Of a DNA stretch of 64,000 nucleotides, positions 28,740-45,908 are shown piece after piece. The position numbers and the translations under genes are program-made. The notes beneath the pieces were generated by a model, which had not been told where the DNA came from, made no database searches, and saw only the letters and a list, made by a program, of their open reading frames with translations. Every line of letters begins with the position of its first letter. Position 1 is the stretch's first letter. This stretch comes from a virus: IMG/VR virus record IMGVR_UViG_3300023174_000058, positions 1-64,000 of that record. The stretch is one strand, 5' to 3'.

Positions 28740-29087
28740 ATGAAGATTTCAAAAACACAATTAAAGCAGATTATCAAGGAAGAGCACAGCAGATTAGTAA
28801 ATGAAATAAGCGCAGGATCAGACAATATTCCTAAAAAAATAACACATAGCGATCCTGCATCTGTAGGTGGCTCTGGGCAGTCTGGGCATATGATGGTGGA
28901 CGCAACACCAGAAATGAAAGTTAAAAGTATAAGAAAAAAAGCAGACGAAGTATTTAAAAAATTTACTTCTGGGCAAGGATTAGACGAAAGCGATAAAGAA
29001 GTATTGGGTAGATCTGCTGGCCTTACCGATAAGCAATTAATGTCTGATGATGAAGTTCTTGAAAAACTTTATTCATTAAGCAAATAA
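28740..29087 (+). CDS. KISKxxLKQIIKEE-tagged protein
   Basis: 115 aa, starting MKISKTQLKQIIKEEHSRL, nearly identical in its first 14 residues to the 26197 protein, but with an unrelated body (SAGLTDKQLMSDDEVLEKL). It ends the cluster; a terminator/promoter hairpin follows. Confidence 0.74.
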   Translation: MKISKTQLKQIIKEEHSRLVNEISAGSDNIPKKITHSDPASVGGSGQSGHMMVDATPEMKVKSIRKKADEVFKKFTSGQGLDESDKEVLGRSAGLTDKQLMSDDEVLEKLYSLSK

Positions 29088-30874: not shown

Positions 30875-31207
30875 ATGGCCGCTAAAAAACGTAAGTATAA
30901 TAGGACTGCTACGCCAAAACCAAAGCCTAAGCCAAAACTCACTCACGGACAAAAGATTAGCGAAACCAAACAGTTAATCAAAAAGCTATCAGAAAAGTTC
31001 CCTATCGGAGAAATGGTTACAGAAAAGTACCACCCAGAAAATGTAGGTTTAATTTCTGGCAAGATAGTTGCAAAAAGATACTCTGAAGAATACATTCATG
31101 CAACTGTTGATGTTCTTTGGATTACAAACAAATGGTATGGCGACGGACAGGTTTACCAGTATCACACTAACTGTCTCAAGGTTCGCAAGGAAAAGAAAGT
31201 TGTTTAA
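30875..31207 (+). CDS. Basic protein with SH3-like C-terminus
   Basis: 110 aa, AGGAGAAAC before the ATG. The first ~30 residues are basic and Pro/Lys-rich (PKPKPKPKL). The rest (FPIGEMVTEKYHP, VLWITNKWYGDG) is beta-rich, probably a small barrel. Nucleic-acid binding is possible. Not recognised. Confidence 0.68.
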   Translation: MAAKKRKYNRTATPKPKPKPKLTHGQKISETKQLIKKLSEKFPIGEMVTEKYHPENVGLISGKIVAKRYSEEYIHATVDVLWITNKWYGDGQVYQYHTNCLKVRKEKKVV

Positions 31208-32534: not shown

Positions 32535-33051
32535 TACTTTTACAGCAGAATTAGAATACCTTTGGATAAGATTTATTGATGTTGTATTTCGGCAACCTTG
32601 GCATTGGTTTCGCTGTCATTTTATTCCCAAACATAAGTTTCACATTCTTGACCTACGCAGAGCCGGGAATGGTTATGCTTGGGGCTGGTACGATACAGAT
32701 AGTCGCATGCTACACGCTTGTTTTCTTCTGCTAAAAGATTATGTTGAACTAGAGAAGCCATTTGAAAATGTTGATTGGGAAGAAAATGAAATTCATAGCA
32801 ACGTAGCAAAAGAAATTCGTGAACTTTATCACTGGTGGACAGTAGAACGCCCAGCTTCTCGTAAGCAACTGCATGACGATTGGGAAAGTTGTCCAGAACA
32901 TTCTCGTTTTGAAAAAGACGAAAACGGTGACTATAGAATCATCATTCCAGAATCACACAAAATTCTTACGAAACGGCAGTGGGATTACGAGCAAGAAGAC
33001 CAGCACAATCTTGAACGGCTTATAAAGATTAGAGGGTTCTTGTGGACGTAA
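32482..33051 (+). CDS. Conserved-looking hypothetical protein
   Basis: 189 aa. I prefer ATG 32482 (AAGGAATCAATT upstream) to the ATG at 32461. Trp- and His-rich; contains WGWYDTDSRMLHACFLLLKD, which I recall from hypothetical proteins of several large phages. The last codons contain the GTG start of the first G-D-I gene. Confidence 0.68.
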   Translation: MMRLESIFTKIKPYLNRDTFTAELEYLWIRFIDVVFRQPWHWFRCHFIPKHKFHILDLRRAGNGYAWGWYDTDSRMLHACFLLLKDYVELEKPFENVDWEENEIHSNVAKEIRELYHWWTVERPASRKQLHDDWESCPEHSRFEKDENGDYRIIIPESHKILTKRQWDYEQEDQHNLERLIKIRGFLWT

Positions 33052-33254
33052 AATATAAATTTGAAATTGGTGATATGGTAGAGTTTACACTAACCGCTTA
33101 TGGTAGTCCCAAAGCATATCATGGAGTTATATCGGAACGGTATGGCGGCGTAGATCACTACTCAGGTAAGATGAGTGTTTATAAAATTTGTTGTCTAGAA
33201 AAACGAATGATAGAATTTACAATAAGCGAGATACTAATTATAGGAAAAGTTTAG
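33042..33254 (+). CDS. G-D-I family member 1 (GTG start)
   Basis: 70 aa starting at GTG 33042 inside the end of the preceding gene, after AGAGGG. Carries the family opening KYKFEIGDMVEF. Divergent member: the C-terminus is IIGKV rather than KVA. Confidence 0.65.
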   Translation: MDVKYKFEIGDMVEFTLTAYGSPKAYHGVISERYGGVDHYSGKMSVYKICCLEKRMIEFTISEILIIGKV

Positions 33255-33266
33255 AGGAAAAAATGA

Positions 33267-33506
33267 TTGGAGCCAAGATTTGATGTTGGAGATATGATTG
33301 AACTAGTGCCAGAAAATTTTCCAGATGATTGGTATGAAGGCATAGGAATAATACTTCAAATAGAAAATGGAAAATATTCTGTGCATGTATTTAGTTTAGT
33401 CAAAACATCAAGAAAAAGACTAACAACATACGTATTAGGTGAAAAGAGAATTCAATTTTCTGTTGTAGAGGCCGATGAAAATGGCTATTTTAAATTACTA
33501 GCCTAA
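33267..33506 (+). CDS. G-D-I family member 2 (TTG start)
   Basis: 79 aa, best read from TTG 33267 after AGAGG (an ATG 4 bases earlier is out of frame). Opening PRFDVGDMIELV; ends KLLA. Precedes the endolysin. Confidence 0.62.
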   Translation: MEPRFDVGDMIELVPENFPDDWYEGIGIILQIENGKYSVHVFSLVKTSRKRLTTYVLGEKRIQFSVVEADENGYFKLLA

Positions 33507-33525
33507 TTATGTTGGAGGTAGTTAA

Positions 33526-34107
33526 ATGGCGCTAATAACAGAGAAACAACTCAAAAGCATTTATCCTAATTGCTATCCAGATAAATTAAAACTATACTGT
33601 GAGGCATTTAATAATATATGGCCGCTGTTTGAAATAACAACTCCAAAACGCATCGCAGCGTTCCTAGGTCAAATTGGTGTTGAAAGCGGTGAATTGAAAT
33701 ACGATAAGGAATTACCAAGCAAATGGAATATGAAAAACCCAAAAGATCCAAGCGAAAAGGTTGGCACATTATACGAAGGGCGTAAGACTCTTGGCAACAT
33801 AATGCCCGGGGATGGTCCTAAGTTTATTGGGCGAGGTATACTTCAATTAACGGGCCGCGCTAACTACGTTGAATACAGCCGTAAATTAAAAATTGATTTA
33901 ACAACCAACCCAGACCTTGCTGCTACACCAGAAGTTAGTGTTAAAATTGCCTGTCAATTCTTTAAGGATCGTAAACTTATAGAAGCAGCAGATAAATGGG
34001 ATCTTGATACGGTAACTGAAAGAGTAAATGGAAAAGTTAAGCTGCATCACGATAAGCGAGTTGCTTACTCTGAGAGAGCTTTAAAAGTTTTAGAAGCGAA
34101 CGTTTAA
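33526..34107 (+). CDS. Endolysin, GH19 chitinase/lysozyme-like
   Basis: 193 aa. Glycoside hydrolase family 19 fold that would cut the peptidoglycan sugar backbone for host lysis. The catalytic region is FLGQIGVESGELKY (E53/E56), followed by the family signature FIGRGILQLTGRANY. No signal peptide, so it probably needs a holin. Upstream GGAGG. The candidate membrane partner is the XhlA-like gene at 22379. Confidence 0.9.
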   Translation: MALITEKQLKSIYPNCYPDKLKLYCEAFNNIWPLFEITTPKRIAAFLGQIGVESGELKYDKELPSKWNMKNPKDPSEKVGTLYEGRKTLGNIMPGDGPKFIGRGILQLTGRANYVEYSRKLKIDLTTNPDLAATPEVSVKIACQFFKDRKLIEAADKWDLDTVTERVNGKVKLHHDKRVAYSERALKVLEANV

Positions 34108-34125
34108 TGGCCTGTGCTTCTAAAA

Positions 34126-34165
34126 ACACTACAGGTGTCATGACAAGAGCTTGCACCTGTAGTGT
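34126..34165 (+). repeat. Perfect 12-bp inverted repeat
   Basis: ACACTACAGGTG/CACCTGTAGTGT with a 16-nt loop, just after the endolysin. No T tract follows, so it may be an RNA-stabilising 3' hairpin rather than a terminator. Confidence 0.7.
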
Positions 34166-34203
34166 CCTTATTAATCCCGCCTTGCGATAGTATCCTTGGC
34201 CCG

Positions 34204-34236
34204 ACGCCCCGCTGGAAACAGATGGGGCGTTTCTTT
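34204..34236 (+). terminator. Intrinsic terminator after endolysin
   Basis: ACGCCCC/GGGGCGT stem (34204-34210, 34224-34230) followed by TTCTTTTT. Confidence 0.85.
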
Positions 34237-34239
34237 TTG

Positions 34240-34268
34240 TTGACATCCTATGTTACATGTGGCATACT
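34240..34268 (+). promoter_or_regulatory. Promoter of the main G-D-I array
   Basis: TTGACA at 34240-34245, 17-bp spacer, CATACT at 34263-34268. Only TACCTC separates the -10 from ATG 34275, so the transcript probably starts at or next to the start codon (leaderless). Confidence 0.75.
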
Positions 34269-34274
34269 TACCTC

Positions 34275-34529
34275 ATGGATAGCATATCAGATCTTAATCG
34301 CTTTAAGAAGATGAAGCGCGGCGATATTTGGCTTGATAAAGATGGCGATTATATCCTTATCAAAGATATCTACAAAGGTTGGCAAAAAGATAAAAAAACT
34401 ATAAAATGGGTTTGTATTGATGCTATTATTTTAAGCGCTAATTCCCAAGCCTTTATTGAAGCCAGTTATCATTCTGGATACTTTATTCAAGATTATGTGC
34501 CAGATTGTATTGTAGAAAAGGTAGCATGA
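34275..34529 (+). CDS. G-D-I family member 3, head of the array
   Basis: 84 aa from ATG 34275. An 11-residue extension precedes MKRGDIWLDKDGDYILIKDI. Ends EKVA. The RGDIW opening is the most MazF/PemK-like in the array. Its own stop overlaps the next start (GCATGATG). Confidence 0.72.
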   Translation: MDSISDLNRFKKMKRGDIWLDKDGDYILIKDIYKGWQKDKKTIKWVCIDAIILSANSQAFIEASYHSGYFIQDYVPDCIVEKVA

Positions 34530-34735
34530 TGAATTCTAAATTCGACGTTGGCGATATAATTATTAAAGATTTTCCAACAGCTGATCCTAATGATTATCGT
34601 ATTATAGTTAAAAAGTATAAAGGTTCTTTCTTTAATAAACAAAGATGGTTATACGATTATTATCATCTAGGAAATAATTATTTGGATTTTGATACTGTTG
34701 ATTATGTAGACCAAACGTTTAAGAAAGTCGCATAA
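34529..34735 (+). CDS. G-D-I family member 4
   Basis: 68 aa. KFDVGDIIIKDF opening, Tyr-rich middle, ends KKVA. Starts by ATGATG overlap with member 3. Confidence 0.78.
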   Translation: MNSKFDVGDIIIKDFPTADPNDYRIIVKKYKGSFFNKQRWLYDYYHLGNNYLDFDTVDYVDQTFKKVA

Positions 34736-34944
34736 TGGATAAATATTATTATGTAACGTTGCAGGATATATGTTCTGGTGATATTTTATGCAATAGATTT
34801 AATAAGGAAGACAAATATCTTGTACTTGACGATACAATAAACTTAACATTACTTGAGATAAACACAGGTCGTTATATTAATCCGACACCATTAGATTTAA
34901 TTCATAATTTTTTAAAGGTTCTTGACGATGTTTCAAGTGGGTGA
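34735..34944 (+). CDS. G-D-I family member 5 (divergent)
   Basis: 69 aa. The motif is CSGDILCNRFNKEDKYLVLDD. Starts on the preceding stop (TAATG). The C-terminus lost the KVA ending and overlaps member 6 by 17 bp. Confidence 0.7.
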   Translation: MDKYYYVTLQDICSGDILCNRFNKEDKYLVLDDTINLTLLEINTGRYINPTPLDLIHNFLKVLDDVSSG

Positions 34945-35095
34945 TATAGTAACATATATTGATGACCTTGACGGATTTCATTATCTTGTGACAAAGATAG
35001 ATCGTCATAAAGGAATTGAATTGCTTTGCTTAGAAGACGGTAGAACAACTTGGGATACTTACAAAGCAATGGATTGCTATGAGATTTATGCATGA
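34928..35095 (+). CDS. G-D-I family member 6 (short)
   Basis: 55 aa. MFQVGDIVTYID, then FHYLVTKID, ELLCLEDG, ends EIYA. Fits the array exactly: it begins in the end of member 5 and ends by ATGA overlap with member 7. Confidence 0.78.
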   Translation: MFQVGDIVTYIDDLDGFHYLVTKIDRHKGIELLCLEDGRTTWDTYKAMDCYEIYA

Positions 35096-35301
35096 ACCCA
35101 AGACCACAGACCGGCGACATCTGGGAAATCTACGGCCCAGCAGGGTACGGTCGTCCCGTACTCGTTGTTGACATTATATTTGATAAGCAGTATAATAGCC
35201 ATGTTGCTATTATGAAACACTTGACCGGGAATCAAATAGTTTTTGAAGCTCCTATTGTTTCTATTCGTCAAGGAGTCGGCATATGGCAAAAAATAGCATA
35301 G
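35092..35301 (+). CDS. G-D-I family member 7, most MazF-like
   Basis: 69 aa. QTGDIWEIYGPAGYGRPVLVVDI closely recalls the beta1-beta2 region of MazF/PemK toxins (GDIW...RPVLVV). Catalytic or RNA-binding residues of MazF cannot be confirmed. Ends QKIA. Confidence 0.78.
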   Translation: MNPRPQTGDIWEIYGPAGYGRPVLVVDIIFDKQYNSHVAIMKHLTGNQIVFEAPIVSIRQGVGIWQKIA

Positions 35302-35483
35302 ATAGTCTATATGATATTGGCGATATAGTACTTTATTTTGGAAAACATTATTGCCTAGTTGTTGATATCCTAAACCCACCAGCGAGTAACCTAAGCGTTT
35401 ATAAAATGTTAAATCTTAAAACAGGAGTAAAACAATCTTGGTTTACACCTGACGTTGACAGGAACAGCGAGTTTATCGCATGA
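35283..35483 (+). CDS. G-D-I family member 8
   Basis: 66 aa. YDIGDIVLYFGKHYCLVVDI opening, YKMLNLKTG middle, ends EFIA. Overlaps member 7 by 19 bp with a GGAG site inside it. Confidence 0.77.
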   Translation: MAKNSIDSLYDIGDIVLYFGKHYCLVVDILNPPASNLSVYKMLNLKTGVKQSWFTPDVDRNSEFIA

Positions 35484-35677
35484 CAAACCGATTTCAAATA
35501 GGTGACATAGTATCCTTTGACCAGCCCGTAGATATTTCTTCAGGTCAATTGAGTTATTTTATAATAAGCGACATAGATTTTACTATACAAAAATATACAG
35601 CTTTACTTATAGGAACAGACGCAACGTATACATATACAATCTATACAATGGATTCAATTTTCTATAAGGTGGCGTAA
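35480..35677 (+). CDS. G-D-I family member 9
   Basis: 65 aa. RFQIGDIVSFDQP, then SYFIISDID, ends YKVA. ATGA overlap with member 8. Confidence 0.77.
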   Translation: MTNRFQIGDIVSFDQPVDISSGQLSYFIISDIDFTIQKYTALLIGTDATYTYTIYTMDSIFYKVA

Positions 35678-35871
35678 TGTTTGCTATTGGTGACATTTGG
35701 ATGTGGACCAAAAATAGTGCCGATCATCCAACCGATCCAGAATATAATTATTTTCTTATTCTTGATGATGAGTGGGGACATAAAGTTCTTTATTTAAAAG
35801 ATGGTAGATTTGCGCATTATGCAACTGGCAATTTACAATACAATAAAGTTCATCTCAAGTTTATCGCATGA
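35677..35871 (+). CDS. G-D-I family member 10
   Basis: 64 aa. MFAIGDIWMWTK, then YFLILDDE, YLKDGRFA, ends KFIA. Starts on the preceding stop (TAATG). Confidence 0.77.
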   Translation: MFAIGDIWMWTKNSADHPTDPEYNYFLILDDEWGHKVLYLKDGRFAHYATGNLQYNKVHLKFIA

Positions 35872-36143
35872 GCAAGAAAAACAAAACGCCTAAATCAATA
35901 GGCCATAAATATAAATTTAGCTATCCTCCCAAGTTTGGTAAGGGAGACATCTTGCGCTATCATGTGCATGACACAGAGGATGCAACCTTTGGTGAAGATC
36001 ACCGGATTATGATCTTAGACATCAGAGAGTATTCGCTAAGTACTGAAAAGATGTTCCAGTACCTTTGTTATTGGCTTGACGAAGGACACTATGTAGAGTA
36101 CAATACTTGGTATGTAGATTTCCACTTTACGAAGGTAGCATGA
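35868..36143 (+). CDS. G-D-I family member 11 (N-terminal extension)
   Basis: 91 aa. A basic 22-residue extension (KKNKTPKSIGHKYKF) precedes KFGKGDILRYH. HRIMILDI and a Cys/Trp-containing strand follow; ends TKVA. Confidence 0.76.
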   Translation: MSKKNKTPKSIGHKYKFSYPPKFGKGDILRYHVHDTEDATFGEDHRIMILDIREYSLSTEKMFQYLCYWLDEGHYVEYNTWYVDFHFTKVA

Positions 36144-36343
36144 TGGACGCACCAGCCAAAGGCGATATTTGGATGGATGATGAAGGCCAGTGTTTTCTTT
36201 ATCTAACAGATCCTGTTTATAGCACGGATGGTGTTTTAAGAGCAACAACGCTATGGCTAAACACGGGGCTTAAAGAAAGAAGTGAATTTAGTTTTAATCC
36301 CGAAACACTTACACTTTATTATTGGTGGACAAAGGTAGCATAA
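36143..36343 (+). CDS. G-D-I family member 12
   Basis: 66 aa from the second ATG of GCATGATG. PAKGDIWMDDEG, then FLYLTD, LWLNTG, ends TKVA. Confidence 0.75.
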   Translation: MDAPAKGDIWMDDEGQCFLYLTDPVYSTDGVLRATTLWLNTGLKERSEFSFNPETLTLYYWWTKVA

Positions 36344-36345
36344 CC

Positions 36346-36537
36346 ATGAAATATGATATTGGTGATATTGTTTATGCATCGTCTATTAATAGGCATGCGT
36401 TAATAACTAACTATCTAAAAGATGAGCACTTCCCAAAAGCTGGTTTTCTAAAGTATCAATTGTTTTGTTTAGAAGCCGGGACATTTCATGATGAAGACAT
36501 CGACAAGGCAGATGATCTTACCGTAAAGGTAGCATGA
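36346..36537 (+). CDS. G-D-I family member 13
   Basis: 63 aa from ATG 36346, two bases after the previous stop. KYDIGDIVYASS, HALITNYL, LFCLEAGT, ends VKVA. Confidence 0.77.
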   Translation: MKYDIGDIVYASSINRHALITNYLKDEHFPKAGFLKYQLFCLEAGTFHDEDIDKADDLTVKVA

Positions 36538-36725
36538 TGTACAAAAAAGGCGACATAATCAAGATGGAAGATCCTTATGGCCCTGCTGGATCGACATTTT
36601 ATAAACATTACTTGATCCTTGACACACGCCAGCATTACGTGTATAATGTTCTTTGTGTTGAAACGGGGAATGCAGATATTATGAATAAAAATTATGTTCG
36701 TAAACATGCGGAGTTTGTAGCATGA
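36534..36725 (+). CDS. G-D-I family member 14
   Basis: 63 aa (ATG 36534 or 36537). YKKGDIIKMEDP, YLILDT, LCVETGN, ends EFVA. ATGATG junction. Confidence 0.77.
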   Translation: MMYKKGDIIKMEDPYGPAGSTFYKHYLILDTRQHYVYNVLCVETGNADIMNKNYVRKHAEFVA

Positions 36726-36907
36726 GCAAACCACAGGTTGGGGACATTTGGGAATCTACTATTATTAATAAAAAGTATCTATTAGTAGAGCTTACATTTG
36801 AAGACGAAACTCATAAAACTTTCAGTGTCTTTCCTATTGGACATAACGATTCACTACTATTTGCGAATTTTTATAACGATCTAGCCGGATGGGAGTTTGT
36901 AGCATGA
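36722..36907 (+). CDS. G-D-I family member 15
   Basis: 61 aa, among the shortest. KPQVGDIWEST, KYLLVELT, ends EFVA. Resembles the - strand members at 45 and 48 kb (PQVGDIW). Confidence 0.77.
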   Translation: MSKPQVGDIWESTIINKKYLLVELTFEDETHKTFSVFPIGHNDSLLFANFYNDLAGWEFVA

Positions 36908-37095
36908 AACTCAAATACGAGAAGGGCGACATCGTAGGACTTTATGATAACTCTACAAAACAAATCTTTGAATACCTTCTTATCACAAACTTAGATTATA
37001 AATATTATCATTGCTATAGCTTGACTAACGGATGCGATAGCAAAGAAACTTTTTATGTTCTTGAGAAAGGTTTTTGGTCGGAGAAGGTAGCATGA
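36904..37095 (+). CDS. G-D-I family member 16
   Basis: 63 aa. KYEKGDIVGLYD, EYLLITNL, YSLTNG, ends EKVA. ATGA junction. Confidence 0.78.
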   Translation: MKLKYEKGDIVGLYDNSTKQIFEYLLITNLDYKYYHCYSLTNGCDSKETFYVLEKGFWSEKVA

Positions 37096-37286
37096 GCCGC
37101 AAATATAATAAGGGTGACATAATAAAAGCTGATTATCAAACTGACGGCAATATTTGGTATTTGCTTATTACCGATATACCAAAAGGTGGTTATCACTACC
37201 ACTACATTTGTTTAAATAACGGGCAGCAAGATCTAGCGGTATCAAGAATAATTGATACCTCGCCCCATTATAAATTATATGCCTAG
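37092..37286 (+). CDS. G-D-I family member 17
   Basis: 64 aa. RKYNKGDIIKADY, WYLLITDI, ICLNNGQ, ends KLYA. Very similar to member 20, marking recent duplication in this end of the array. Confidence 0.78.
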   Translation: MSRKYNKGDIIKADYQTDGNIWYLLITDIPKGGYHYHYICLNNGQQDLAVSRIIDTSPHYKLYA

Positions 37287-37302
37287 CAGTGAGGGTAGCA
37301 TA

Positions 37303-37491
37303 ATGCGCGTAAAGGTTGGCGACATCATAGGCATCAGGCATTACAGCGGCGCTGGTGTCACAGAGGGCAACTATTATCTTATTACCAAAACCCGTAATCA
37401 TTTCCGCTATGTAGCTATCTTTCTTGGGGATGGCACAACAACCGAACTAGATAAAAGTTATGTTGACAACTATGGGGTAAAGGTGGCATAA
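37303..37491 (+). CDS. G-D-I family member 18
   Basis: 62 aa from ATG 37303 after GAGGGTAGCATA. VKVGDIIGIRHY, YYLITKT, IFLGDG, ends VKVA. GC content is higher than in earlier members. Confidence 0.76.
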   Translation: MRVKVGDIIGIRHYSGAGVTEGNYYLITKTRNHFRYVAIFLGDGTTTELDKSYVDNYGVKVA

Positions 37492-37724
37492 TGCCAGCAC
37501 AGAAGCACAAGAAGATCAAAAGGGAACCAAAGTATGCGGTGGGCGACATACTCCGCATGGATTTTGGTATACTTGGTCATAAAAAAGAGCGACTTGTTTA
37601 TTATGCAATCATAACCCGGGTGGGTAAGAGCAGCTATGACTACAATTACCTAGACAATTGGGAAGATGAAACTGAAAGCCATGACTTTGTGGACGAGCAC
37701 AAAGGGATAACACTCCATGCCTAA
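37491..37724 (+). CDS. G-D-I family member 19 (basic extension)
   Basis: 77 aa. A Lys-rich N-terminus (KHKKIKREPKY) precedes AVGDILRMDF; YYAIITRVG, NYLDNWED, ends LHA. TAATG junction. Confidence 0.76.
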   Translation: MPAQKHKKIKREPKYAVGDILRMDFGILGHKKERLVYYAIITRVGKSSYDYNYLDNWEDETESHDFVDEHKGITLHA

Positions 37725-37914
37725 ATATAAACCCAAGTACAAGGCGGGCGATATATTAAAAGCAGATTACGGGGTTGATGAGAAAGTTTGGTATATGCTG
37801 ATTACAAAAGTAGGAGTAAACCTATACGACTATCTTTATTTGAACAACGGGAAGCAAAGTCAAACAGCAATCATGGCGGTTGACCGCTCCCATTATATAA
37901 GGTACTATGCCTAG
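37717..37914 (+). CDS. G-D-I family member 20
   Basis: 65 aa. KYKAGDILKADYG, WYMLITKVG, LYLNNGKQ, ends YYA. Overlaps member 19 by 8 bp. Confidence 0.78.
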   Translation: MPKYKPKYKAGDILKADYGVDEKVWYMLITKVGVNLYDYLYLNNGKQSQTAIMAVDRSHYIRYYA

Positions 37915-37928
37915 CAGTGGAGGCACTC

Positions 37929-38117
37929 ATGCCTAAGTATAATGTAGGCGACATCATAAATATAAATTATTATCCTGATGGCAGTAGTGGCTTCTATGCA
38001 CTAATAACCAGTATGGATGAGCGTACCTATTATTTCAACTATCTTGATACTTGGGAAGCTGATTGTTGGGACATTAGGATAGCAGATAGTGGATCATCCA
38101 TAACGTTCTATGCATAA
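37929..38117 (+). CDS. G-D-I family member 21
   Basis: 62 aa from ATG 37929 (GGAGGCACTC upstream). MPKYNVGDIININYY, FYALITSMD, NYLDTWE, ends FYA. Confidence 0.78.
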   Translation: MPKYNVGDIININYYPDGSSGFYALITSMDERTYYFNYLDTWEADCWDIRIADSGSSITFYA

Positions 38118-38133
38118 TAGTCGGAGCATCACT

Positions 38134-38322
38134 ATGCCTAAATATGATGTTGGGGACATTATAAAGATTACACCAATCGACGACTCTTCTAGAGCTTGGT
38201 ACGCGCTAATAACCAAAATGGATAGTAGTAGGTATTACTATTTCTATTTTGATAACGGTGATCCTGATTGGGCAGCTTTTGAAGGTCTTGATTATAGTGA
38301 CAGGATAAGCCTATATGCCTAA
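38134..38322 (+). CDS. G-D-I family member 22
   Basis: 62 aa from ATG 38134 (GGAGCATCACT upstream). MPKYDVGDIIKITPI, WYALITKMD, YFDNGDP, ends LYA. Close to member 21. Confidence 0.78.
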   Translation: MPKYDVGDIIKITPIDDSSRAWYALITKMDSSRYYYFYFDNGDPDWAAFEGLDYSDRISLYA

Positions 38323-38357
38323 ACATAATGTATAATTAGTGGCTAATTATTATAGTT

Positions 38358-38606
38358 ATGCCATCAGACAAACCATACGACCATCCAGATATCGGACCAC
38401 CACAATTTGATGTAGGCGACATAATAACATATCACATCATTACTACGGGCGGCGTAACAATAGAACATTACCATTGTCTTGTAATGGATTTATACTTTCA
38501 TCACATACAAGAACATTGGTATTATACCCTATTAAATCTAAATGGCGGCAGAACAGCAGATCATCCAACCCACCATATAGATGGGCATTTTCAACTTTTA
38601 CTTTAA
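38358..38606 (+). CDS. G-D-I family member 23
   Basis: 82 aa. A Pro/Asp-rich extension precedes QFDVGDIITYH; YHCLVMDL, LNLNGG, ends QLLL (KVA lost). It has its own 35-bp upstream gap with TATAATTAG, so it may be a separate unit. Confidence 0.72.
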   Translation: MPSDKPYDHPDIGPPQFDVGDIITYHIITTGGVTIEHYHCLVMDLYFHHIQEHWYYTLLNLNGGRTADHPTHHIDGHFQLLL

Positions 38607-38660
38607 AACTTATCAATTCTTGTATGTTTATGCTACAATGCTAAAGTTGGGGAACATTAG

Positions 38661-39572
38661 ATGGGCATGAAACAGTGTAGCATTTGTAGACAGCTAAGAG
38701 ACATCGATAAGTTTGGATATGATAGTGGCAACCCAGATGGCCGCCATCGTGAGTGCAGGGATTGCAGAAAAATAAAAGATAAACAAATAAGAAACAAGCA
38801 TAATCCAAACAATATAGATCCACGCGATTGGATAGGCAAAGAGGAACCATTCCCAAACACATCGCTTATAATTAAATCTGCCGTTCGTGGTACCCCAATG
38901 GTAAGTGGGCGTAACGGGAAAAGTTATTATAATCAAAACGTACTTGTTGATTGCCTATGCGGCATCAAAGATATATCCCTGCGAACAACCAATATTAAAA
39001 AGGGGCACACTGTATGTTGCTCCTCAACTTGCCAATATTCCGTAAGAAACCAACAGGCCAAGTTAGCCGGTGAACAGTTTATACAAAAAGCAAAACTAGT
39101 TCATGGCGAGAAGTATGACTACTCAAAGGTTGCTTATAAGAATAAGGAAACAAAAATTACAATAGGTTGCCCAAAGCACGGGGAATACCAACAAAACCCA
39201 AGCAGCCATCTTGCAGGTAGAGGTTGCACAAGATGCACAAATAGTATCTCAAGGGGCGAAACTGATTGGCTTGATAGCCTCGGCATCCCAAAAGAACAAA
39301 GAAACATATGGATCTACATAGAGGGATATGGTAAGATAAAGCCAGATGGATACGATCCCCTAACAAATACAATATATGAATACCACGGTGATTACTTCCA
39401 CGGCAATCTAAAGATATACGAACCGGACGAAATAAACCGCAACAATAAAAAAACAATGGCCCAACTGTTCCAAGACACAGTTAAGCGTAGCGCAGCAATA
39501 AGGGATGCCGGTTATAATCTTGTATCAATATGGGAAAGCGATTGGAAGAAGCAGGGGAAGGGGAACCACTAG
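38661..39572 (+). CDS. Homing-endonuclease-like protein (DUF723 repeats + EDxHD/VSR-like nuclease)
   Basis: 303 aa. An N-terminal zinc-finger (CSICRQLRDIDKF ... CRDCRK) is followed by a DUF723-like DNA-binding motif (KAKLVHGEKYDYSKVAYKN, GCPKHGEYQQNPSSHL, GRGCTRC). The C-terminal nuclease region has DGYDPLTNTIYEYHGDYFHG and ends VSIWESDWKK, as in I-Bth0305I/VSR-like enzymes. It sits between two G-D-I genes, so it is a mobile insertion in the array. Its promoter has TGCTACAAT and the leader GTTGGGGAAC. Confidence 0.8.
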   Translation: MGMKQCSICRQLRDIDKFGYDSGNPDGRHRECRDCRKIKDKQIRNKHNPNNIDPRDWIGKEEPFPNTSLIIKSAVRGTPMVSGRNGKSYYNQNVLVDCLCGIKDISLRTTNIKKGHTVCCSSTCQYSVRNQQAKLAGEQFIQKAKLVHGEKYDYSKVAYKNKETKITIGCPKHGEYQQNPSSHLAGRGCTRCTNSISRGETDWLDSLGIPKEQRNIWIYIEGYGKIKPDGYDPLTNTIYEYHGDYFHGNLKIYEPDEINRNNKKTMAQLFQDTVKRSAAIRDAGYNLVSIWESDWKKQGKGNH

Positions 39573-39591
39573 AAGGGGAAGGGGCATAGTA

Positions 39592-39813
39592 ATGCTAGAA
39601 ACAAAGTTCAAAAAGGGCGACATAATAATCCGTACAAGCGAGTGGGGCGACACAATAGCATTGGTAACAGGAGTAGAAGCCGCACAAGATACATTCCCAG
39701 ATGATTTGCCGTATTACCAATTATTGTACCTAACTAGCCCTTACTCAGAAATACCAAATAGCCAGCAACTAGCAACATGGATAGTAGATAAAATATATAA
39801 ACTAAAAAGCTAG
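39592..39813 (+). CDS. G-D-I family member 24, after the endonuclease
   Basis: 73 aa from ATG 39592. KFKKGDIIIRTSEWG, TIALVTGVE, LLYLTSP, ends KLKS. Probably the former neighbour of member 23. Upstream DNA is GGGGAAGGGG-rich. Confidence 0.72.
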   Translation: MLETKFKKGDIIIRTSEWGDTIALVTGVEAAQDTFPDDLPYYQLLYLTSPYSEIPNSQQLATWIVDKIYKLKS

Positions 39814-40514
39814 TAACCACTACCACCAGTACCAGTAGAAGGACGGCCACCACTAGGGCTACCCCTACTACCTATAGTTCTACCCCTACCCGTACCCTAT
39901 AACTATATCCATAGGTAGAGGTACCCCTAGTAGTACAGGGGAGGGGCGGCATAACAATAAAAAATATAGATAGGGATAACCATACATATAGATAAAAAAA
40001 AGTAAAACCCCTATAGCCCATATGGGAATGGGAAGGGGATAAAAAACATTAGTATAAATTATCTATAGGATCTAAAATATGGGTAGGGTAAAACTCTATA
40101 GACGGGGGATACCTACAGTAATAGAATATGGGATGCCAAATTTCACATACAATACATTGTAATTTATAAACTATATAAAAATATAGCACTTGTGGGGTAC
40201 GGAAATGCCAAGTATGAGGGGGCGGATAAAGCCTTTTCTGCCCCAAATTGGTGCAACTGCCCGAAATCAGGGCACTTTTTAGAAACAGCTATGCACATTT
40301 CCTCCCTATAAAAGGTGGCCCACACATGCTATAATAGACAAAAGGGTGCCATCCCCCCATAAAAAGGAGGGGCGATAATCCTAAATCTATATATTCTAAT
40401 CCTATTACTACAAGGCTAAAACCTCTATCCATCTTATTACAGGGATAGTATACTCCAGCATAATAGTTATGTCAATAGATGTTCCCCCTATAGAATAAAA
40501 AAAATGGGGTGGGG

Positions 40515-40589
40515 AGGGGGCTAGGCAGACGCGCAGGGCCTTTTTTTCAGCCCCCCAATAAAAGGCCGGAAACCCCGGCCTAGCCCCCC
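40515..40589. repeat. Degenerate CTAG repeat pair, convergent site
   Basis: GGGGGCTAGGC (40515) and GCCTAGCCCCC (about 40578) are perfect inverted copies ~50 bp apart, enclosing GGCCTTTTTTTC and a GGCCGG/CCGGCC hairpin next to AATAAAA. It looks like two half-copies of the GGGGCTAGCCCC element. Confidence 0.55.
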
Positions 40590-40618
40590 GTCGCAGCCCT
40601 TTTATTTTCGGCAATAGG

Positions 40619-40649
40619 AAACCCCCCGCTCCAGATAGGCAACGGGGGG
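40619..40649 (-). terminator. Intrinsic terminator for the MoxR gene
   Basis: On the - strand, CCCCCCG/CGGGGGG stem followed by TTTCC, 30 bp after the MoxR stop. Confidence 0.7.
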
Positions 40650-40678
40650 CAGCCCTAAGATAGTGTTAGCCTTGCGAC

Positions 40679-41764
40679 TTACTTCTTGGCCTTCTTGCTA
40701 CCGCCAAGGAGATCGACAACGTGCTGCTTAACGCTCTTGCCGTCCACAGTCAACTTGTGCATTTCAAGGATCAGGCCCATGATAGCGGGCGACTTGCTTG
40801 CATCGGTGTAAAACTTCATGCCCGCCTCGCTGGGCAGACGGAGGAAGAAACGGAGGACGTTATCACGCTCCTCGACCGGCATATCCTTGGAAACACGCCC
40901 GCTGGCAAGAACCTTGTCAACAAGGGCGGTGTATTCACCCAGTTTGTAACCCTTCATGCCGTCGAAACGACCGGAGAGAATATCGTCAACGGAGACAACC
41001 CGCTCCAGATTCTTGATATAGTCACGCGAGGCAAGCGCAGCCTCCATGCCGATATAACCGCTGGCGATGTTGTAATACACATCCAGCCGCGTCTTGAAAT
41101 CGTCGCCTTCAAGGATGCCCGCCTTCGTAACGGTATCCGAAAAACGCTTCCACGAACGGCGGGAGGGATAAATCTTGTTAGGCTCAAACTCCCCCTTGTG
41201 CTCCAGATGCGCGCTCTGATCGTTAATAAAGTCCACAATCAGGGGATGAATGTTACCGGCGCGGCCATAATCCAGCCAATCGCCCACAGACGGTTCAATG
41301 TCGAAAGCGGTCCAGCGGTCCAGTTCGGCCGGGTCCATGTCGTTAACCGCGTACTGGGCACCGTGCGTGCCGCCGTTCACAGCGGCGAAAATAAGCGTCT
41401 CAGGGTGCAGACGATGACCGTTGATCGTACGGGAATCCGTCAACTGGAAAATGCCCTGACGGACCTCAGTGGTGCCGCGATCCACCTCATCCAGAAAGAG
41501 GACAACGGGGCGTTCGCACGCTTCCTTGAACCAATCCGGGGGGTTCCAAGAGGTACGGTTGCCGTCGATGACGGGCAGACCCACAAGATCGCCCTCAGTC
41601 ATCTGCGAGACACGGCGCTCGACAACCGGCAGACCACGCTTCGCCGCAAACTGATAGACCAGTTCGCTCTTGCCGATACCGTGCCGCCCGCGCAGCATGA
41701 TAGGATGCTTGGCGTCCGCGATAAGGGAAACGAACGAGTTAAACGTCTTGAAGTCGATAGCCAT
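40679..41764 (-). CDS. MoxR-type AAA+ ATPase
   Basis: 361 aa from ATG 41764 (AAGGGGTAAGGTA upstream). Walker A GRHGIGKS at residues 26-33, Walker B VVLFLDEVDRG, sensor FAAVNGG, and SQMTEGDLVGLPV of the MoxR clade. MoxR ATPases work with VWA-domain partners as chaperones or activators. The next - strand gene upstream (42044-43255) is such a partner, each on its own promoter. Role in phage infection unknown. Confidence 0.9.
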   Translation of the reverse strand: MAIDFKTFNSFVSLIADAKHPIMLRGRHGIGKSELVYQFAAKRGLPVVERRVSQMTEGDLVGLPVIDGNRTSWNPPDWFKEACERPVVLFLDEVDRGTTEVRQGIFQLTDSRTINGHRLHPETLIFAAVNGGTHGAQYAVNDMDPAELDRWTAFDIEPSVGDWLDYGRAGNIHPLIVDFINDQSAHLEHKGEFEPNKIYPSRRSWKRFSDTVTKAGILEGDDFKTRLDVYYNIASGYIGMEAALASRDYIKNLERVVSVDDILSGRFDGMKGYKLGEYTALVDKVLASGRVSKDMPVEERDNVLRFFLRLPSEAGMKFYTDASKSPAIMGLILEMHKLTVDGKSVKQHVVDLLGGSKKAKK

Positions 41765-41810
41765 TACCTTACCCCTTTTTGGTGACGCTCCATACGTCAA
41801 CCGTTTGGAG

Positions 41811-41839
41811 AGAATAACCTAAGTCGCTGCCCTATGCAA
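41811..41839 (-). promoter_or_regulatory. Promoter of MoxR gene and leader hairpin
   Basis: On the - strand TTGCAT, 17-bp spacer, TATTCT. The leader then has TGACG/CGTCA closing a TATGGAG loop before the ribosome site. Confidence 0.65.
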
Positions 41840-41935
41840 CAACTTTTTTTGTTCTATCGGTAGAGTGGGCCTCTCCTGCATCCCGCTCAACCGTGAAAGG
41901 CAATATACAGGAGGCGGGCGATCCCGTCAAGCGCT

Positions 41936-41984
41936 AAAAAAAGGCTAGGCGGCAGGGGCTAGCCCCCCAACCCTGCCCTTTTTT
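41936..41984. repeat. CTAG intergenic repeat 1
   Basis: A-tract, perfect core GGGGCTAGCCCC at 41955-41966, T-tract. Lies between the VWA gene end and the MoxR promoter. Confidence 0.85.
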
Positions 41985-41994
41985 GCGGGGCAGG

Positions 41995-42028
41995 AAAAAG
42001 CCCGCCCCCCATTTCGGGAGAGGCGGGC
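41995..42028 (-). terminator. Intrinsic terminator for the VWA gene
   Basis: On the - strand GCCCGCC/GGCGGGC stem followed by TTTTTCC. Confidence 0.82.
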
Positions 42029-42043
42029 AGGGTTCCTGTGCTA

Positions 42044-43255
42044 TTAGTTCAGTTTCTTCTTAATGGGGATGATACGCTCGCCGTTTCGGAAGTATGGATT
42101 TTCCGCACCATTAAGGTCGGTCATCCACATACGGCGGCACTTGGAGGGTTTAGGCGCGGGAGCCATCATATCAGTCAGGACGATATGCCCGTCAAAGGTG
42201 CCAGCCTTGTTGACATACTCAGTCGGGGCGTCGAAATCGGTGCCGCCCATCATAACGCGGGTTGCCTTAGCCCGCTGGCCCTTCTTCCATTCATACACAA
42301 GGGTAGGCTCCACACGGGTATCGAACGGAATGACGGTAAAGGTTGCCAGTTTGGAAAGACTGTTAAGTTCGCCAAAGAACGCTTCAAGCAGTTCATCCGA
42401 AACGCTGCCGCTCTGGTCAATCGAAATGGCGATATGCGCGGAGCGGTTCGACTTCTTGCCGGGATGGATGTAAGGGAAACGCTTGTTGATACGTTTCACC
42501 GTGCTGGACTTGTGCGAACGCTGTGCATTACCAACGAACATACGGAGGACGGCTTTCCAGTCAATCGTACCATTAATGAAACGCAAAATCTCCTTCCGCA
42601 TATCATGCGGCACGCTGCCCCAACCGTTGCCCCCCTTGTTGTTGGCTTCCTCTGCGGCACCCTTCATAATCTCGCGCAGACGCTCCTTTGCCATAGCCTT
42701 GACTTCTTCCGGCACGTTGCCCTCGCCCCAGCCGTCGTGCGAGTCCATGTTACCGCACGAGCCATCGCAGGTGGGACCGTCGCCGCCATCCTCGCCGCTG
42801 GCATGGTTGCCGTCGCACTTACCGCCCTTTTCGTCCTGCTTGTCCTTCTCCAGCCGCTTATAGTAGTCCTCTGCGGTCAAACCATCGGGATAGTTAAACT
42901 TCTCAGGCATAAGGGCAAAATCGGGCAGTTCACCCTTAAGATGGCAGTTAATGGACAGATCGGTAGCAAAGTTCCAACGCTTACTGATCTTCTTGCCATC
43001 GGGCGAACGTCCGAGACAATGATCGAGCATAAGATGGTAAAGTTCGTGCTTTAGAACACCGCGACGATGGTTGTCGGGCAACTTCTCAAAAAACTCCTCG
43101 TTATAGACCATCTCGAAATGACCGTCATCCATAACGCGCACGCCAGCGGTAGGGACCGACTTGGTGGGACGCTTGGAAATATGACGCGACACGGCAGCGA
43201 AAAAAGACTCGTTCAAGAGCAGACGGAACATATCGTTTTCAAGATCGTAAGCCAT
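42044..43255 (-). CDS. VWA-like protein with HExxH metallopeptidase motif (DUF2201-like)
   Basis: 403 aa. The N-terminal domain has HELYH at residues 70-74 with a further His at 79, a zinc-protease-like site. A Gly/Asp/Cys-rich linker (~145-185) follows. The C-terminal VWA-like domain has a MIDAS motif DQSGS at 280-284 and later TDFDAP. This two-domain layout is that of MoxR-partner proteins of the DUF2201 type. Own promoter with TTGACA/TATAGT and a leader hairpin with an ATGGA loop. Confidence 0.87.
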   Translation of the reverse strand: MAYDLENDMFRLLLNESFFAAVSRHISKRPTKSVPTAGVRVMDDGHFEMVYNEEFFEKLPDNHRRGVLKHELYHLMLDHCLGRSPDGKKISKRWNFATDLSINCHLKGELPDFALMPEKFNYPDGLTAEDYYKRLEKDKQDEKGGKCDGNHASGEDGGDGPTCDGSCGNMDSHDGWGEGNVPEEVKAMAKERLREIMKGAAEEANNKGGNGWGSVPHDMRKEILRFINGTIDWKAVLRMFVGNAQRSHKSSTVKRINKRFPYIHPGKKSNRSAHIAISIDQSGSVSDELLEAFFGELNSLSKLATFTVIPFDTRVEPTLVYEWKKGQRAKATRVMMGGTDFDAPTEYVNKAGTFDGHIVLTDMMAPAPKPSKCRRMWMTDLNGAENPYFRNGERIIPIKKKLN

Positions 43256-43290
43256 CGCAGACCTCGCGCTGCTCCATGCAGCGTGGAGAG

Positions 43291-43320
43291 ACTATACAGC
43301 AGACGGGGGGCGGTTGTCAA
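43291..43320 (-). promoter_or_regulatory. Promoter of the VWA gene
   Basis: TTGACA, 18-bp spacer, TATAGT on the - strand. The RNA would begin CTCC-rich and then fold CGCTGC/GCAGCG around an ATGGA loop before the ribosome site. Confidence 0.75.
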
Positions 43321-43326
43321 TAGGGG

Positions 43327-43373
43327 AAAAAAGGCGGGGCCGTGGGGGCTAGCCCCTGCCAGATAACCTTTTT
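43327..43373. repeat. CTAG intergenic repeat 2
   Basis: Perfect core GGGGCTAGCCCC at 43345-43356 with AAAAAAGG and CCTTTTT flanks. Confidence 0.88.
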
Positions 43374-43394
43374 AGGCTACCGGCAGGGGTAGGA

Positions 43395-43997
43395 CTAGGG
43401 CATAATACCCGTTACATAATGATTATAGTTTCCACCCTTTTCGCTTCCAATCAGGAGACGTTGGGGCATGGTGACTTTCTTAACAAGAACTTCTGGGTCA
43501 TAATCAATATCGTGAGAAGGTGCTTCAATCGTAAAGTTAATCCGATTGTAATAATCATGTTCCTTTGACACGCTATTTGGATCCTTTAGGCGCATAAGCA
43601 TGCGGCTAATGGGCACGGAAACAGTAATCTCCTCAGCCCCACCATCAAAAGAAACAAGGCTAGCATGAACCGATCGGGCAATAAAACTTTCATTAACGTA
43701 TCTGGGTTCAAGTTTGACACGCTTTGAATACTTCAGATTGCGCGCTTCAATAAAGCCACAGTTAGCAACCCAATCAAAATCCTTTACCATGCAAAGTTTA
43801 AACTTCTCAGGACTCCAATAATCTTGGACTCGGAGAAGAGCGCCAACGCCCAGACCAACCTTGGCAAACCCTTCAATAAGGGCTTTGCGTTCCTTTGGAG
43901 TATGGGTTAACACAATGTTACGCTGGTCCTTGAAATCGGGGCAATCCGGCTTTCGGTGTCCAATATTCCTACAGTATCCGCAAAGACGCTCAGACAT
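43395..43997 (-). CDS. Zinc-knuckle protein
   Basis: 200 aa from Met at 43997. A CCHC zinc knuckle CGYCRNIGHRKPDC is at the N-terminus, as in nucleic-acid-binding gag-type knuckles. The rest is mixed alpha/beta with no other recognised motif. Monocistronic, with its own promoter and flanked by CTAG repeats. Confidence 0.78.
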   Translation of the reverse strand: MSERLCGYCRNIGHRKPDCPDFKDQRNIVLTHTPKERKALIEGFAKVGLGVGALLRVQDYWSPEKFKLCMVKDFDWVANCGFIEARNLKYSKRVKLEPRYVNESFIARSVHASLVSFDGGAEEITVSVPISRMLMRLKDPNSVSKEHDYYNRINFTIEAPSHDIDYDPEVLVKKVTMPQRLLIGSEKGGNYNHYVTGIMP

Positions 43998-44030
43998 AAT
44001 AGCCTCGCCGCTCTCCATGAGCGTAGGCAG

Positions 44031-44059
44031 ACAATAGCATGGGAACCTCACCGTGTCAA
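44031..44059 (-). promoter_or_regulatory. Promoter of the zinc-knuckle gene
   Basis: On the - strand TTGACA, 17-bp spacer ending in TGC, TATTGT. The leader folds CGCTC/GAGCG around ATGGA. Confidence 0.72.
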
Positions 44060-44066
44060 GAGGGAC

Positions 44067-44114
44067 AAAAAAGGACCGCTGAAAGGGGCTAGCCCCCTGC
44101 CCAACCGGTTTTAT
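44067..44114. repeat. CTAG intergenic repeat 3
   Basis: Perfect core at 44085-44096, A- and T-tract flanks. Lies directly after the 30-aa basic gene on the - strand. Confidence 0.87.
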
Positions 44115-44134
44115 CCAGCGGGAGGGGACCATCA

Positions 44135-44227
44135 TTAACGCTTCTTGTTTTGGTTACGGGTGCGGCGCTTCTTACTCCCGATCTTTCGCCTACCCTTGCG
44201 CGGACGGTTCTTTGCTGGCCAACCCAT
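44135..44227 (-). CDS. Very small basic protein
   Basis: 30 aa, about half Lys/Arg (GWPAKNRPRKGRRKIGSKKR...). AAAGGAG lies upstream of the ATG. It occupies a unit of its own, followed by a CTAG repeat terminator as all neighbouring genes are, which supports it being real. Could bind RNA or DNA. No relative recognised. Confidence 0.5.
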   Translation of the reverse strand: MGWPAKNRPRKGRRKIGSKKRRTRNQNKKR

Positions 44228-44289
44228 GACTAACTCCTTTTGTTAGGTCTATTCTTATCGAGCAAACTACTTATAGTATGGAGAACACA

Positions 44290-44886
44290 ATGGAAACTAC
44301 CAAAGTTTGTAATGGATGTAAAGAAGAAAAGTTACTTGTCGAATACAATAAAGACAAAAGCAAGAAAGACGGATACCAAACACGGTGTAGAGCCTGTAAG
44401 CAAGTTTCCGATAATGCTTGGAGGCAGGAGAACAAAGACAGCGTAAATGCTAAGTCGAAAGCATGGCGTAAGGTCAATAGGCAGCGAGCGCAAGAAAACA
44501 TTAAACGCTGGCAGGAGGAGAATCCAGAACGATACCGCGAAATCCAGCGCAAGCATTGGCGTAAGTCTTACGAAAAGAACAAGTTCAAGAAGCTTGTTTC
44601 CGGTGCTATTAAACGTTCACTCAAAGGAATATGGAAGTCAAAAGCCATCTTTGAAAGACTTGGCTATACCGTCGATCAACTCAAAGAGCATCTAGAAAGC
44701 AAGTTCACAGAAGGCATGACTTGGGAGAACCACGGCGAATGGCACATAGATCACATAACGCCACAGTCTTGGCTACCATTCTCCAGTATCGAAGACGAAA
44801 ACTTTATAAAGTGCTGGTCGCTAAGTAACCTTCAGCCTTTATGGGCTAAGGATAATATCAGCAAGGGTAACCGCTATGAAGGATAG
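44290..44886 (+). CDS. HNH endonuclease with N-terminal zinc finger
   Basis: 198 aa, ATG 44290 after GGAGAACAC (ATG 44278 also in frame). N-terminal CNGCKEEKLLVEYNKDK ... CRACK finger, a long basic helical stretch, then HNH-like WHIDHITPQSW and NLQPLWAKDNISKGNR. Inserted as a + strand gene between - strand units, as expected of a homing gene. Same architecture as 55947. Confidence 0.85.
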   Translation: METTKVCNGCKEEKLLVEYNKDKSKKDGYQTRCRACKQVSDNAWRQENKDSVNAKSKAWRKVNRQRAQENIKRWQEENPERYREIQRKHWRKSYEKNKFKKLVSGAIKRSLKGIWKSKAIFERLGYTVDQLKEHLESKFTEGMTWENHGEWHIDHITPQSWLPFSSIEDENFIKCWSLSNLQPLWAKDNISKGNRYEG

Positions 44887-44907
44887 GAGGCATACCGGAC
44901 CTCCCTT

Positions 44908-45126
44908 CTATGCGATAAACTTCCAACGCCTATTATCTGCTGCAATCTTACTTACCCCCTCTTTTGAGAGAGGGGCATCACCGTGGGTAAGACCAATCAT
45001 CTTAACCGTATCGGCGTCATAGAACTTTGGATCACACTCTATGTATTCTGCGATAAGATAATAAAAGTTCTTACCCAATCCATAGAAGCACCAGATATCG
45101 CCTACCTGTGGAGTACGGCTGCTCAT
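44908..45126 (-). CDS. G-D-I family, - strand member 27
   Basis: 72 aa from Met 45126. RTPQVGDIWCFYG, FYYLIAEYI, ends KFIA. Start overlaps the stop of member 26 (ATGA). The HNH gene at 44290-44886 ends just after this operon. Confidence 0.77.
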   Translation of the reverse strand: MSSRTPQVGDIWCFYGLGKNFYYLIAEYIECDPKFYDADTVKMIGLTHGDAPLSKEGVSKIAADNRRWKFIA

Positions 45127-45308
45127 GCTACCCACCTGTAGTACTGAAAACAGGAGATATCGGTTTCATCCTCGCCCCAAGCATTATCCAGCCACAGAAT
45201 AAAATAACGATGCCCCCACTTGCTGTACCTACGCACGATGCTAGTCACCATAAAGTGTGCCTGTGAGCCGGGGGAATAGTAGATGTCGCCTACCCGTGGA
45301 TCATACAT
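45123..45308 (-). CDS. G-D-I family, - strand member 26
   Basis: 61 aa. DPRVGDIYYSPG, HFMVTSIV, FILWLDN, ends RWVA. Coupled to both neighbours by overlaps. Confidence 0.77.
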   Translation of the reverse strand: MYDPRVGDIYYSPGSQAHFMVTSIVRRYSKWGHRYFILWLDNAWGEDETDISCFQYYRWVA

Positions 45309-45529
45309 TAGGCGAGCCTCTCACAATCTTTTAAAACACTAAAATCAAGTGACCACTCCCCATAGCCAGTATCCCAGTAGTTCGACTCCATTACAAGCAC
45401 TTCGTAATGCGGGTAGTGCTTTTCAGGCAGCCGCTTACCTACCAGAAGCACCGCATAGTTTGCAACCCCTTGCATTGGTTGCCGCATCTGGTACCGCAAA
45501 ATGTCGCCCGTGCAGACCGTTGAAATCAT
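45308..45529 (-). CDS. G-D-I family, - strand member 25, operon head
   Basis: 73 aa. VCTGDILRYQMR, NYAVLLVGK, LVMESN, ends ERLA. ATG lies six bases after the -10, so probably leaderless. Confidence 0.76.
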   Translation of the reverse strand: MISTVCTGDILRYQMRQPMQGVANYAVLLVGKRLPEKHYPHYEVLVMESNYWDTGYGEWSLDFSVLKDCERLA

Positions 45530-45535
45530 GGAAGC

Positions 45536-45564
45536 ACTCTACCAGAGAAGGGAGTGACTGTCAA
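45536..45564 (-). promoter_or_regulatory. Leaderless-type promoter for members 25-27
   Basis: On the - strand TTGACA, 17-bp spacer, TAGAGT, then GCTTCC and the ATG. Confidence 0.72.
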
Positions 45565-45569
45565 GGTGG

Positions 45570-45642
45570 CGGTCCCGGCTGGATTTGAACCAGCGTAACT
45601 CTGTTTAGAAGACAGATGCCTAATCCGCTAGACTACGGGACC
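45570..45642 (-). tRNA. tRNA-Arg (UCU)
   Basis: Cloverleaf on the - strand: acceptor GGTCCCG/CGGGACC, anticodon stem TCTGT/ACAGA with loop CTTCTAA (anticodon TCT), T-arm CTGGTTCAAATCCAG. CCA is encoded (45567-45569). Reads AGA, a codon common in the AT-rich genes. Confidence 0.92.
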
Positions 45643-45809: not shown

Positions 45810-45819
45810 GAAAAGTTGG

Positions 45820-45902: not shown

Positions 45903-45908
45903 AAGTGG

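Follow-up and report, generated by a model that had tools for sequence, protein, structure and literature searches.

We analysed a window of viral DNA, the first 64 kb of the 162,187-base IMG/VR record IMGVR_UViG_3300023174_000058, which carries a tandem array of tiny genes whose products share a G-D-I motif (the GDI family). The array is real, and larger than had been thought. An earlier note on this DNA proposed about 24 genes of one design on the plus strand; all the open reading frames (ORFs) it listed are present, and both a profile search and a held-out test agree with it. The figure of 24 is borne out for the plus-strand array but is too small for the family as a whole, since 12 more members lie outside. 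Our favoured explanation, to which we give a probability of roughly 0.5 as a whole statement, is that the products constitute a repertoire of diversified SH3-like binders, probably expressed early and acting on host factors; the part concerning family, fold and array, taken alone, is held with high confidence. The rest of the record contains T4-type structural genes (86-162 kb), and the contig is T4-like and uncultured; its gp17-type terminase (140353-141927) and the one from Flavobacterium phage immuto share 46% identity.

Members were detected with an iterated profile, seeded with seven array members and run on the six-frame ORFs of the whole 162-kb record. The converged profile retained 32 members at E<0.01; with the weaker candidates 33042, 33267, 34735 and 45308, which are probable but not certain members, the family comes to about 36, or 31-36 depending on which weak matches are counted. 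They occupy three sites: 33042-39813 on the plus strand (24, weak ones included), 44908-45529 and 48086-49640 on the minus strand (10) and 67186-67619 on the plus strand (2). All are stand-alone single-domain proteins of 54-91 amino acids. As a guard against circularity, a profile was trained on one group of members and used to search the other. With the 12 outside members as training set, 20 of the 24 plus-strand genes were recovered at E<1 and 13 at E<0.01 (top reversed decoy, E=5.2); in the opposite direction, 11 of the 12 outside members were found at E<1 and 9 at E<0.01 (top reversed decoy, E=0.37). Taken as a family, the members cannot owe their resemblance to chance. The layout of the window around the arrays is as follows.

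33042-33254 (GTG start) and 33267-33506 (TTG start), plus strand: two weak family members upstream of the endolysin gene (profile E-values 0.015 and 0.25)
33526-34107, plus strand: endolysin, chitinase-like of glycoside hydrolase family 19, not a family member (PHROG 181 endolysin, 1e-48; Pfam Glyco_hydro_19)
About 34203-34231 (feature 34203-34240), plus strand: terminator-like hairpin with a T-rich tail, before the main array (RNA fold -20.5 kcal/mol, z -2.85)
34240-34268, plus strand: promoter sequence TTGACA-N17-CATACT, 6 nucleotides (nt) ahead of an ATG at 34275 that is in frame with the first main-array gene
34311-38606, plus strand: main array of 21 consecutive family genes, mostly overlapping (profile search, coordinates, junctions and held-out test)
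Main-array starts, part 1, plus strand: 34311, 34529, 34735, 34928, 35092, 35283, 35480, 35677, 35868, 36143, 36346
Main-array starts, part 2, plus strand: 36537, 36722, 36904, 37092, 37303, 37491, 37717, 37929, 38134, 38358
38661-39572, plus strand: gene of HNH or endonuclease VII-like type that lies within the array region but does not belong to the family (PHROG 559 HNH endonuclease, 2.8e-17)
39592-39813, plus strand: family member beyond the endonuclease gene (profile E-value 4e-11)
40679-41764, minus strand: MoxR-type AAA ATPase, a landmark of the arrays (Pfam AAA_5 and DUF2201, together with the next gene)
42044-43255, minus strand: metallopeptidase/VWA gene, a conserved landmark; the arrays lie around it and the ATPase gene
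45308-45529, 45123-45308 and 44908-45126, minus strand: three overlapping family genes, with a promoter sequence TTGACA-N17-TAGAGT at 45564
49416-49640, 49207-49416, 48935-49153, 48644-48850, 48438-48647, 48277-48441 and 48086-48280, minus strand: seven family genes, with promoter sequences at 49675 and 48886 and orthologues in a related contig (L106)

Within 34311-38606, consecutive genes overlap by 1-19 nt at 15 of the 20 junctions, are 2 nt apart at one and are separated by 14-35 nt at four. The translational relay suggested in the earlier note therefore holds as an overlapping chain at most junctions, but not as a single relay over the whole interval, because the endolysin and the HNH-type endonuclease genes interrupt it. 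The first two weak members are moreover set apart from the main run by the hairpin and the promoter at 34240. The gap between endolysin and array also contains a strong imperfect inverted repeat, ACACTACAGGTG...CACCTGTAGTGT (34125-34172, fold z -4.76). The minus-strand clusters lie in a G+C-rich block (40000-57000; 0.47-0.57 compared with 0.36 for the record), mostly on the minus strand, which also contains four transfer RNA genes, several small genes of HNH-like type and host-type promoters. This block appears to be a distinct region, early or acquired, and the family members within it have an adapted G+C content (about 0.5 at third codon positions versus 0.3).

The gene overlap is itself a DNA element, AAGGTAGCATGA(TG), which combines a Shine-Dalgarno-like AAGG, the final codons K-V-A and the next ATG. 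Its forms are listed here, together with a possible gene stub.

36526-36539, also 34518 and 36132, plus strand: junction element AAGGTAGCATGATG, one of several
36717, 36899 and 37084 (plus strand) and 48446, 48285, 48094 and 45131 (minus strand): shorter forms
38315-38335, plus strand: possible stub of a lost copy, ATGCCTAAACATAATGTATAA, reading M-P-K-H-N-V-stop

Ten of the 11 copies of GTAGCATGA in the record are located at family junctions, and a scan for the junction-plus-GDI pattern returned only L106 and a second contig (L186), the latter without family genes. Codon usage at the gene ends is biased: of 31 final Ala codons, 22 are GCA and one is GCT, where long ORFs use these codons at 35% and 41% (binomial P about 2e-6), and the preceding Val is never GTT (0/18, against 51%; binomial P about 3e-6). 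This bias fits translational coupling, and the genes could mostly be coupled in this way. The same element may furnish gene borders with microhomology (about 9-14 bp) for unit-wise recombination. Phage T4 amplifies tifA via microhomologies of typically 6-10 bp (PMC9391042), and SegB-driven amplification in T6 indicates that homing endonucleases can promote such events (PMC13096335). The gene at 38661-39572 is a candidate driver of recombination here; SegB is a GIY-YIG enzyme whereas this product is HNH/endonuclease VII-like, so that the likeness is a reminder only and shows no link. As for the stub at 38315, its neighbours start with MPKYNVGDI and MPKYDVGDI, which is suggestive, but only suggestive, of the remnant of a lost copy.

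The first genes of the clusters are preceded by TTGAC(A/T)-N17-[TC]AnnnT, ending about 6-8 nt before the ATG, at 34240, 45564, 48886 and 49675; a further site with this layout, at 37880, precedes 37929 within coding region. Chance would yield about 0.6 sites in 33-58 kb for this promoter-plus-start layout, and an equal layout is found ahead of members in L106 and in another related contig, L105. An exact TTGACA-N17-TATAAT is also present twice within genes of the array (35168 and 36619), where both copies overlap codons of conserved protein motifs. Since the total promoter-like count in the array (40) was not clearly above that of shuffled sequences (29, standard deviation 5.6), the promoter-plus-start layout alone was used. 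The T4-type late promoter TATAAATA matched once within the array (36997), without enrichment. Host-type sigma-70 promoters suggest early expression, and the clusters are probably early; the very short promoter-ATG distance suggests leaderless mRNAs.

Single-protein searches among viral contigs and 50,697 phage records found no relatives, which shows how strongly the family has diverged; relatives were therefore sought through neighbouring genes. The MoxR-type ATPase led to L105 and L106, where this enzyme shares 61-63% identity with that of the present phage. Profile searches detected about 15 members in L105 and about 13 in L106, with arrays at the corresponding locus beside the ATPase gene; in L106 they flank it on both sides, in the same relative orientation as here. 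Despite this ATPase identity, recognisable orthologues are few. The weak member 33042 and an L106 member are each other's best match. A poorly resolved tree (64 columns) mixes orthologue pairs with lineage-specific groups, pointing to birth and death of copies.

More distant T4-like contigs carry, around the equivalent ATPase gene, arrays of genes of the type MKVGDLVK...GLV...VLW, with 16-27 per contig in the five examined (L107, L121, L129, L133 and L137). Because iterated profiles risk drift, this link was re-tested by profile-profile comparison (hhalign), which gave 91% and 93% probability against the GDI family alignment, and by an AlphaFold2 model with a matching barrel strand order (predicted local distance difference test score, pLDDT, 95.4). 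Their core motif differs (GDLVK, GLV, VLW) and they mostly lack the KVA end. Common descent of the two families is probable, with a shared fold alone as the fallback reading. Arrays like this one in other phages, which the earlier note had proposed to look for, thus exist in L105, L106 and these five contigs; none of the four isolates immuto, Mel-JY01, S-SM1 and KP8 has a comparable array. No account of such arrays was found in the literature searched, which covered few subscription journals or preprints. Segments of the form VGDQV/IGEMV/VGTVV ... NVLW at 46860-47672 (minus strand), 30875-31207 and 50447-50716 (both plus strand) resemble the MKVGDLVK barrel type, and one of them is the C-terminal part of a 270-amino-acid protein.

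Coding status was assessed on the four clear orthologues in L106: 37303 (65% identity), 48438 (54%), 49416 (49%) and 48935 (40%). Synonymous and nonsynonymous differences per site are 0.49 and 0.27, 0.64 and 0.32, 0.79 and 0.39, and 0.71 and 0.39, respectively. With a ratio of nonsynonymous to synonymous rates (dN/dS) of ~0.25-0.43 where computable, these four frames are translated genes under purifying selection, as read from the sequence comparison; by analogy the other members, all with intact frames, would be coding too. Paralogues share only 24% identity on average. The earlier note took members 17-22 for a recent duplication, which the data contradict: the closest set (37092, 37491, 37717, 37929 and 38134) is 29-45% identical, with nearly saturated synonymous sites (0.68-0.83 differences per site), and 37303 falls outside it.

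Each member appears to form a five-strand SH3-like barrel whose last strand is preceded by a short 3-10 helix. This prediction comes from an AlphaFold2 model of one member (37092-37286) computed from the family alignment (mean pLDDT 95.1; strands at residues 10-14, 21-28, 35-40, 46-50 and 60-62, helix at 51-56), whose strand order matches the SH3-like barrel guessed in the earlier note. The top PDB folds in Foldseek were Tudor, PWWP and Spt4/5 KOW domains (probability 0.98-1.0, E-value about 0.04, best 0.036, template modelling score about 0.5-0.7); in a viral structure library the neighbours were many small uncharacterised phage proteins. Besides G-D-I at strand 1 and hydrophobic residues in strands 2, 3 and 5, one Asp and a glycine in a turn are conserved; all non-core positions are highly variable. 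No catalytic-looking signature was seen among the conserved columns, which makes an enzyme less likely than a binding scaffold. PHROGs, Pfam, NCBIfam and PADLOC gave only isolated weak matches, none naming the family (among them a YccV-like Pfam match), and PDB sequences gave none. Net charge spans -8 to +4, most members being acidic or neutral, so that DNA mimicry is unlikely as a common function. The C-terminal KVA was also considered as a degradation tag. This is unlikely because the DNA there is constrained by the overlap with the next gene; in addition, KVA corresponds to the last barrel strand and aligns with KVS or VIS in relatives. Most members without a coupled family gene downstream still end in Ala, and the protein end is therefore conserved too.

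Family, coding status, array architecture, conserved locus and turnover are established, and the fold is predicted by a model; early timing, binder function and host targets are our inference. An ancestral gene at the MoxR/VWA operon locus would have undergone repeated tandem duplication, divergence and loss, giving about 36 genes. Each cluster would be transcribed from its own host-type sigma-70 promoter, probably early, with mostly coupled translation, and the products would be small non-catalytic binders with a Tudor/KOW-type SH3-like barrel. Since variation affects most positions outside a fixed core, individual members may each recognise a different host factor, whether protein or nucleoprotein complex, in takeover and counter-defence. 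Fixed core, variable remainder, single-domain format, probable early expression and rapid turnover fit such a binder repertoire. The fast divergence is likewise compatible with the arms race invoked in the earlier note, whose anti-defence role is still conjecture. Several points weigh against our explanation: the Foldseek matches are weak (best PDB E-value 0.036) and the SH3 fold is functionally promiscuous; the variable surface was deduced from alignment entropy; scans of PHROGs, Pfam, NCBIfam and PADLOC gave no match to a known effector or defence-related family; and the early timing is based on promoter sequence alone.

The nearest functional rival, which we regard as unlikely, is that the proteins are KOW-like nucleic-acid or nucleoid binders acting on DNA, RNA, ribosome or RNA polymerase and tuning host transcription or translation, a role of the kind proposed for the KOW domain of T4 MotB. 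KOW and PWWP are among the nearest folds, Pfam KOW weakly matches two MKVGDLVK relatives (E 0.002), and the early T4 protein MotB, which has a predicted KOW domain, binds DNA (PMC7827196). However, the GDI members lack the KOW sequence motif in Pfam scans, their alignment shows no conserved basic patch, and the mostly acidic to neutral charge argues mildly against nonspecific nucleic-acid binding. MotB is, as the array proteins probably are, an early and host-directed protein of a T4-type phage, and its N-terminus carries a predicted SH3-like/KOW barrel some 40-60 residues long, but it is single-copy, highly conserved and has a second, OB-fold domain, whereas the array proteins are single-domain, tandem and fast-diverging; no sequence match between them was found. 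A gene-dosage array, in which all copies share one job and number matters, would find a precedent in T4 tifA and T6 SegB, where small counter-defence genes are multiplied in tandem, and in the junction microhomology. It is improbable given the 24% mean identity and near-saturated synonymous sites, as recent copies would be near-identical: the tifA (dmd-tifA) and SegB amplifications are transient, near-identical and laboratory-selected (PMC9391042, PMC13096335), while the array copies are old, diverged and stable.

Neutral or selfish proliferation, with copies piling up by replication slippage and homing under little selection, could account for the nearby endonuclease genes and the possible stub at 38315; we consider it quite improbable in view of the dN/dS values, the intact frames, the maintained promoters and junction elements and the persistence of arrays across distant phages. 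Small beta barrels are frequent among phage structural proteins, but a role in virion decoration or structure is very improbable here: the structural genes are distant (86-162 kb), the promoters are host-type, and turnover far exceeds that of virion genes of the same contigs. The MazF/PemK toxin likeness put forward in the earlier note rested on a local resemblance seen by eye in 35092 (GDIW ... GRPVLVVDI), and is scarcely credible. Pfam PemK was unmatched at E<=1 in all 32 members, nothing that matched in Pfam, PHROG, NCBIfam or the PDB sequences named MazF/PemK, MazF was not among the 50 best PDB folds, and these proteins of 54-91 amino acids lack a conserved Arg/Thr pair.

Beyond MotB, HspQ/YccV-like proteins and YorP, the latter from a phage-derived region of Bacillus subtilis, are small stand-alone SH3-like barrels among the better PDB matches of the MKVGDLVK model; they are single-copy, with no sequence relation to the array family shown. 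The host-takeover module of Bacillus phage SPO1 also packs many tiny early genes head-to-tail, but these are largely unrelated to each other whereas the array here is one family.

Other features of the record include a phage-encoded GroEL-like chaperonin (20763-22343) and a run of sugar-nucleotide and glycosyltransferase-like genes (72400-85519), identified by eye (e.g. GDP-mannose dehydratase-like and dTDP-sugar epimerase-like), which suggests glycosylation of phage or host structures. Several unrelated proteins (26179-26661, 28740-29087, 136285-136536, 145470-145895 and 152522-152788) have in common a short N-terminal motif resembling MKISK..LKQIIKEEL, which may serve in processing or targeting.

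Most accessory genes of phages are small orphans, and their origin is unclear. In this phage a single scaffold that profile and predicted fold make recognisable yields dozens of them in a single genome and recurs across an uncultured T4-like phage lineage, suggesting that tifA-like amplifications can turn into permanent, diversified gene families. We also entertain, as a doubtful extension of the binder repertoire, a mini-barrel cassette array in which the junction element (ribosome site plus overlapping stop and start) would allow precise gene gain, loss and reshuffling. If this were true, the standing scaffold would be a source of new host-binding specificities, and the array would be for the phage what defence islands are for the host. 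With its orthologues and lineage-specific copies, the family supplies many candidate binders of roughly 60 residues and would offer a direct route to studying the evolution of phage host-interaction proteins.

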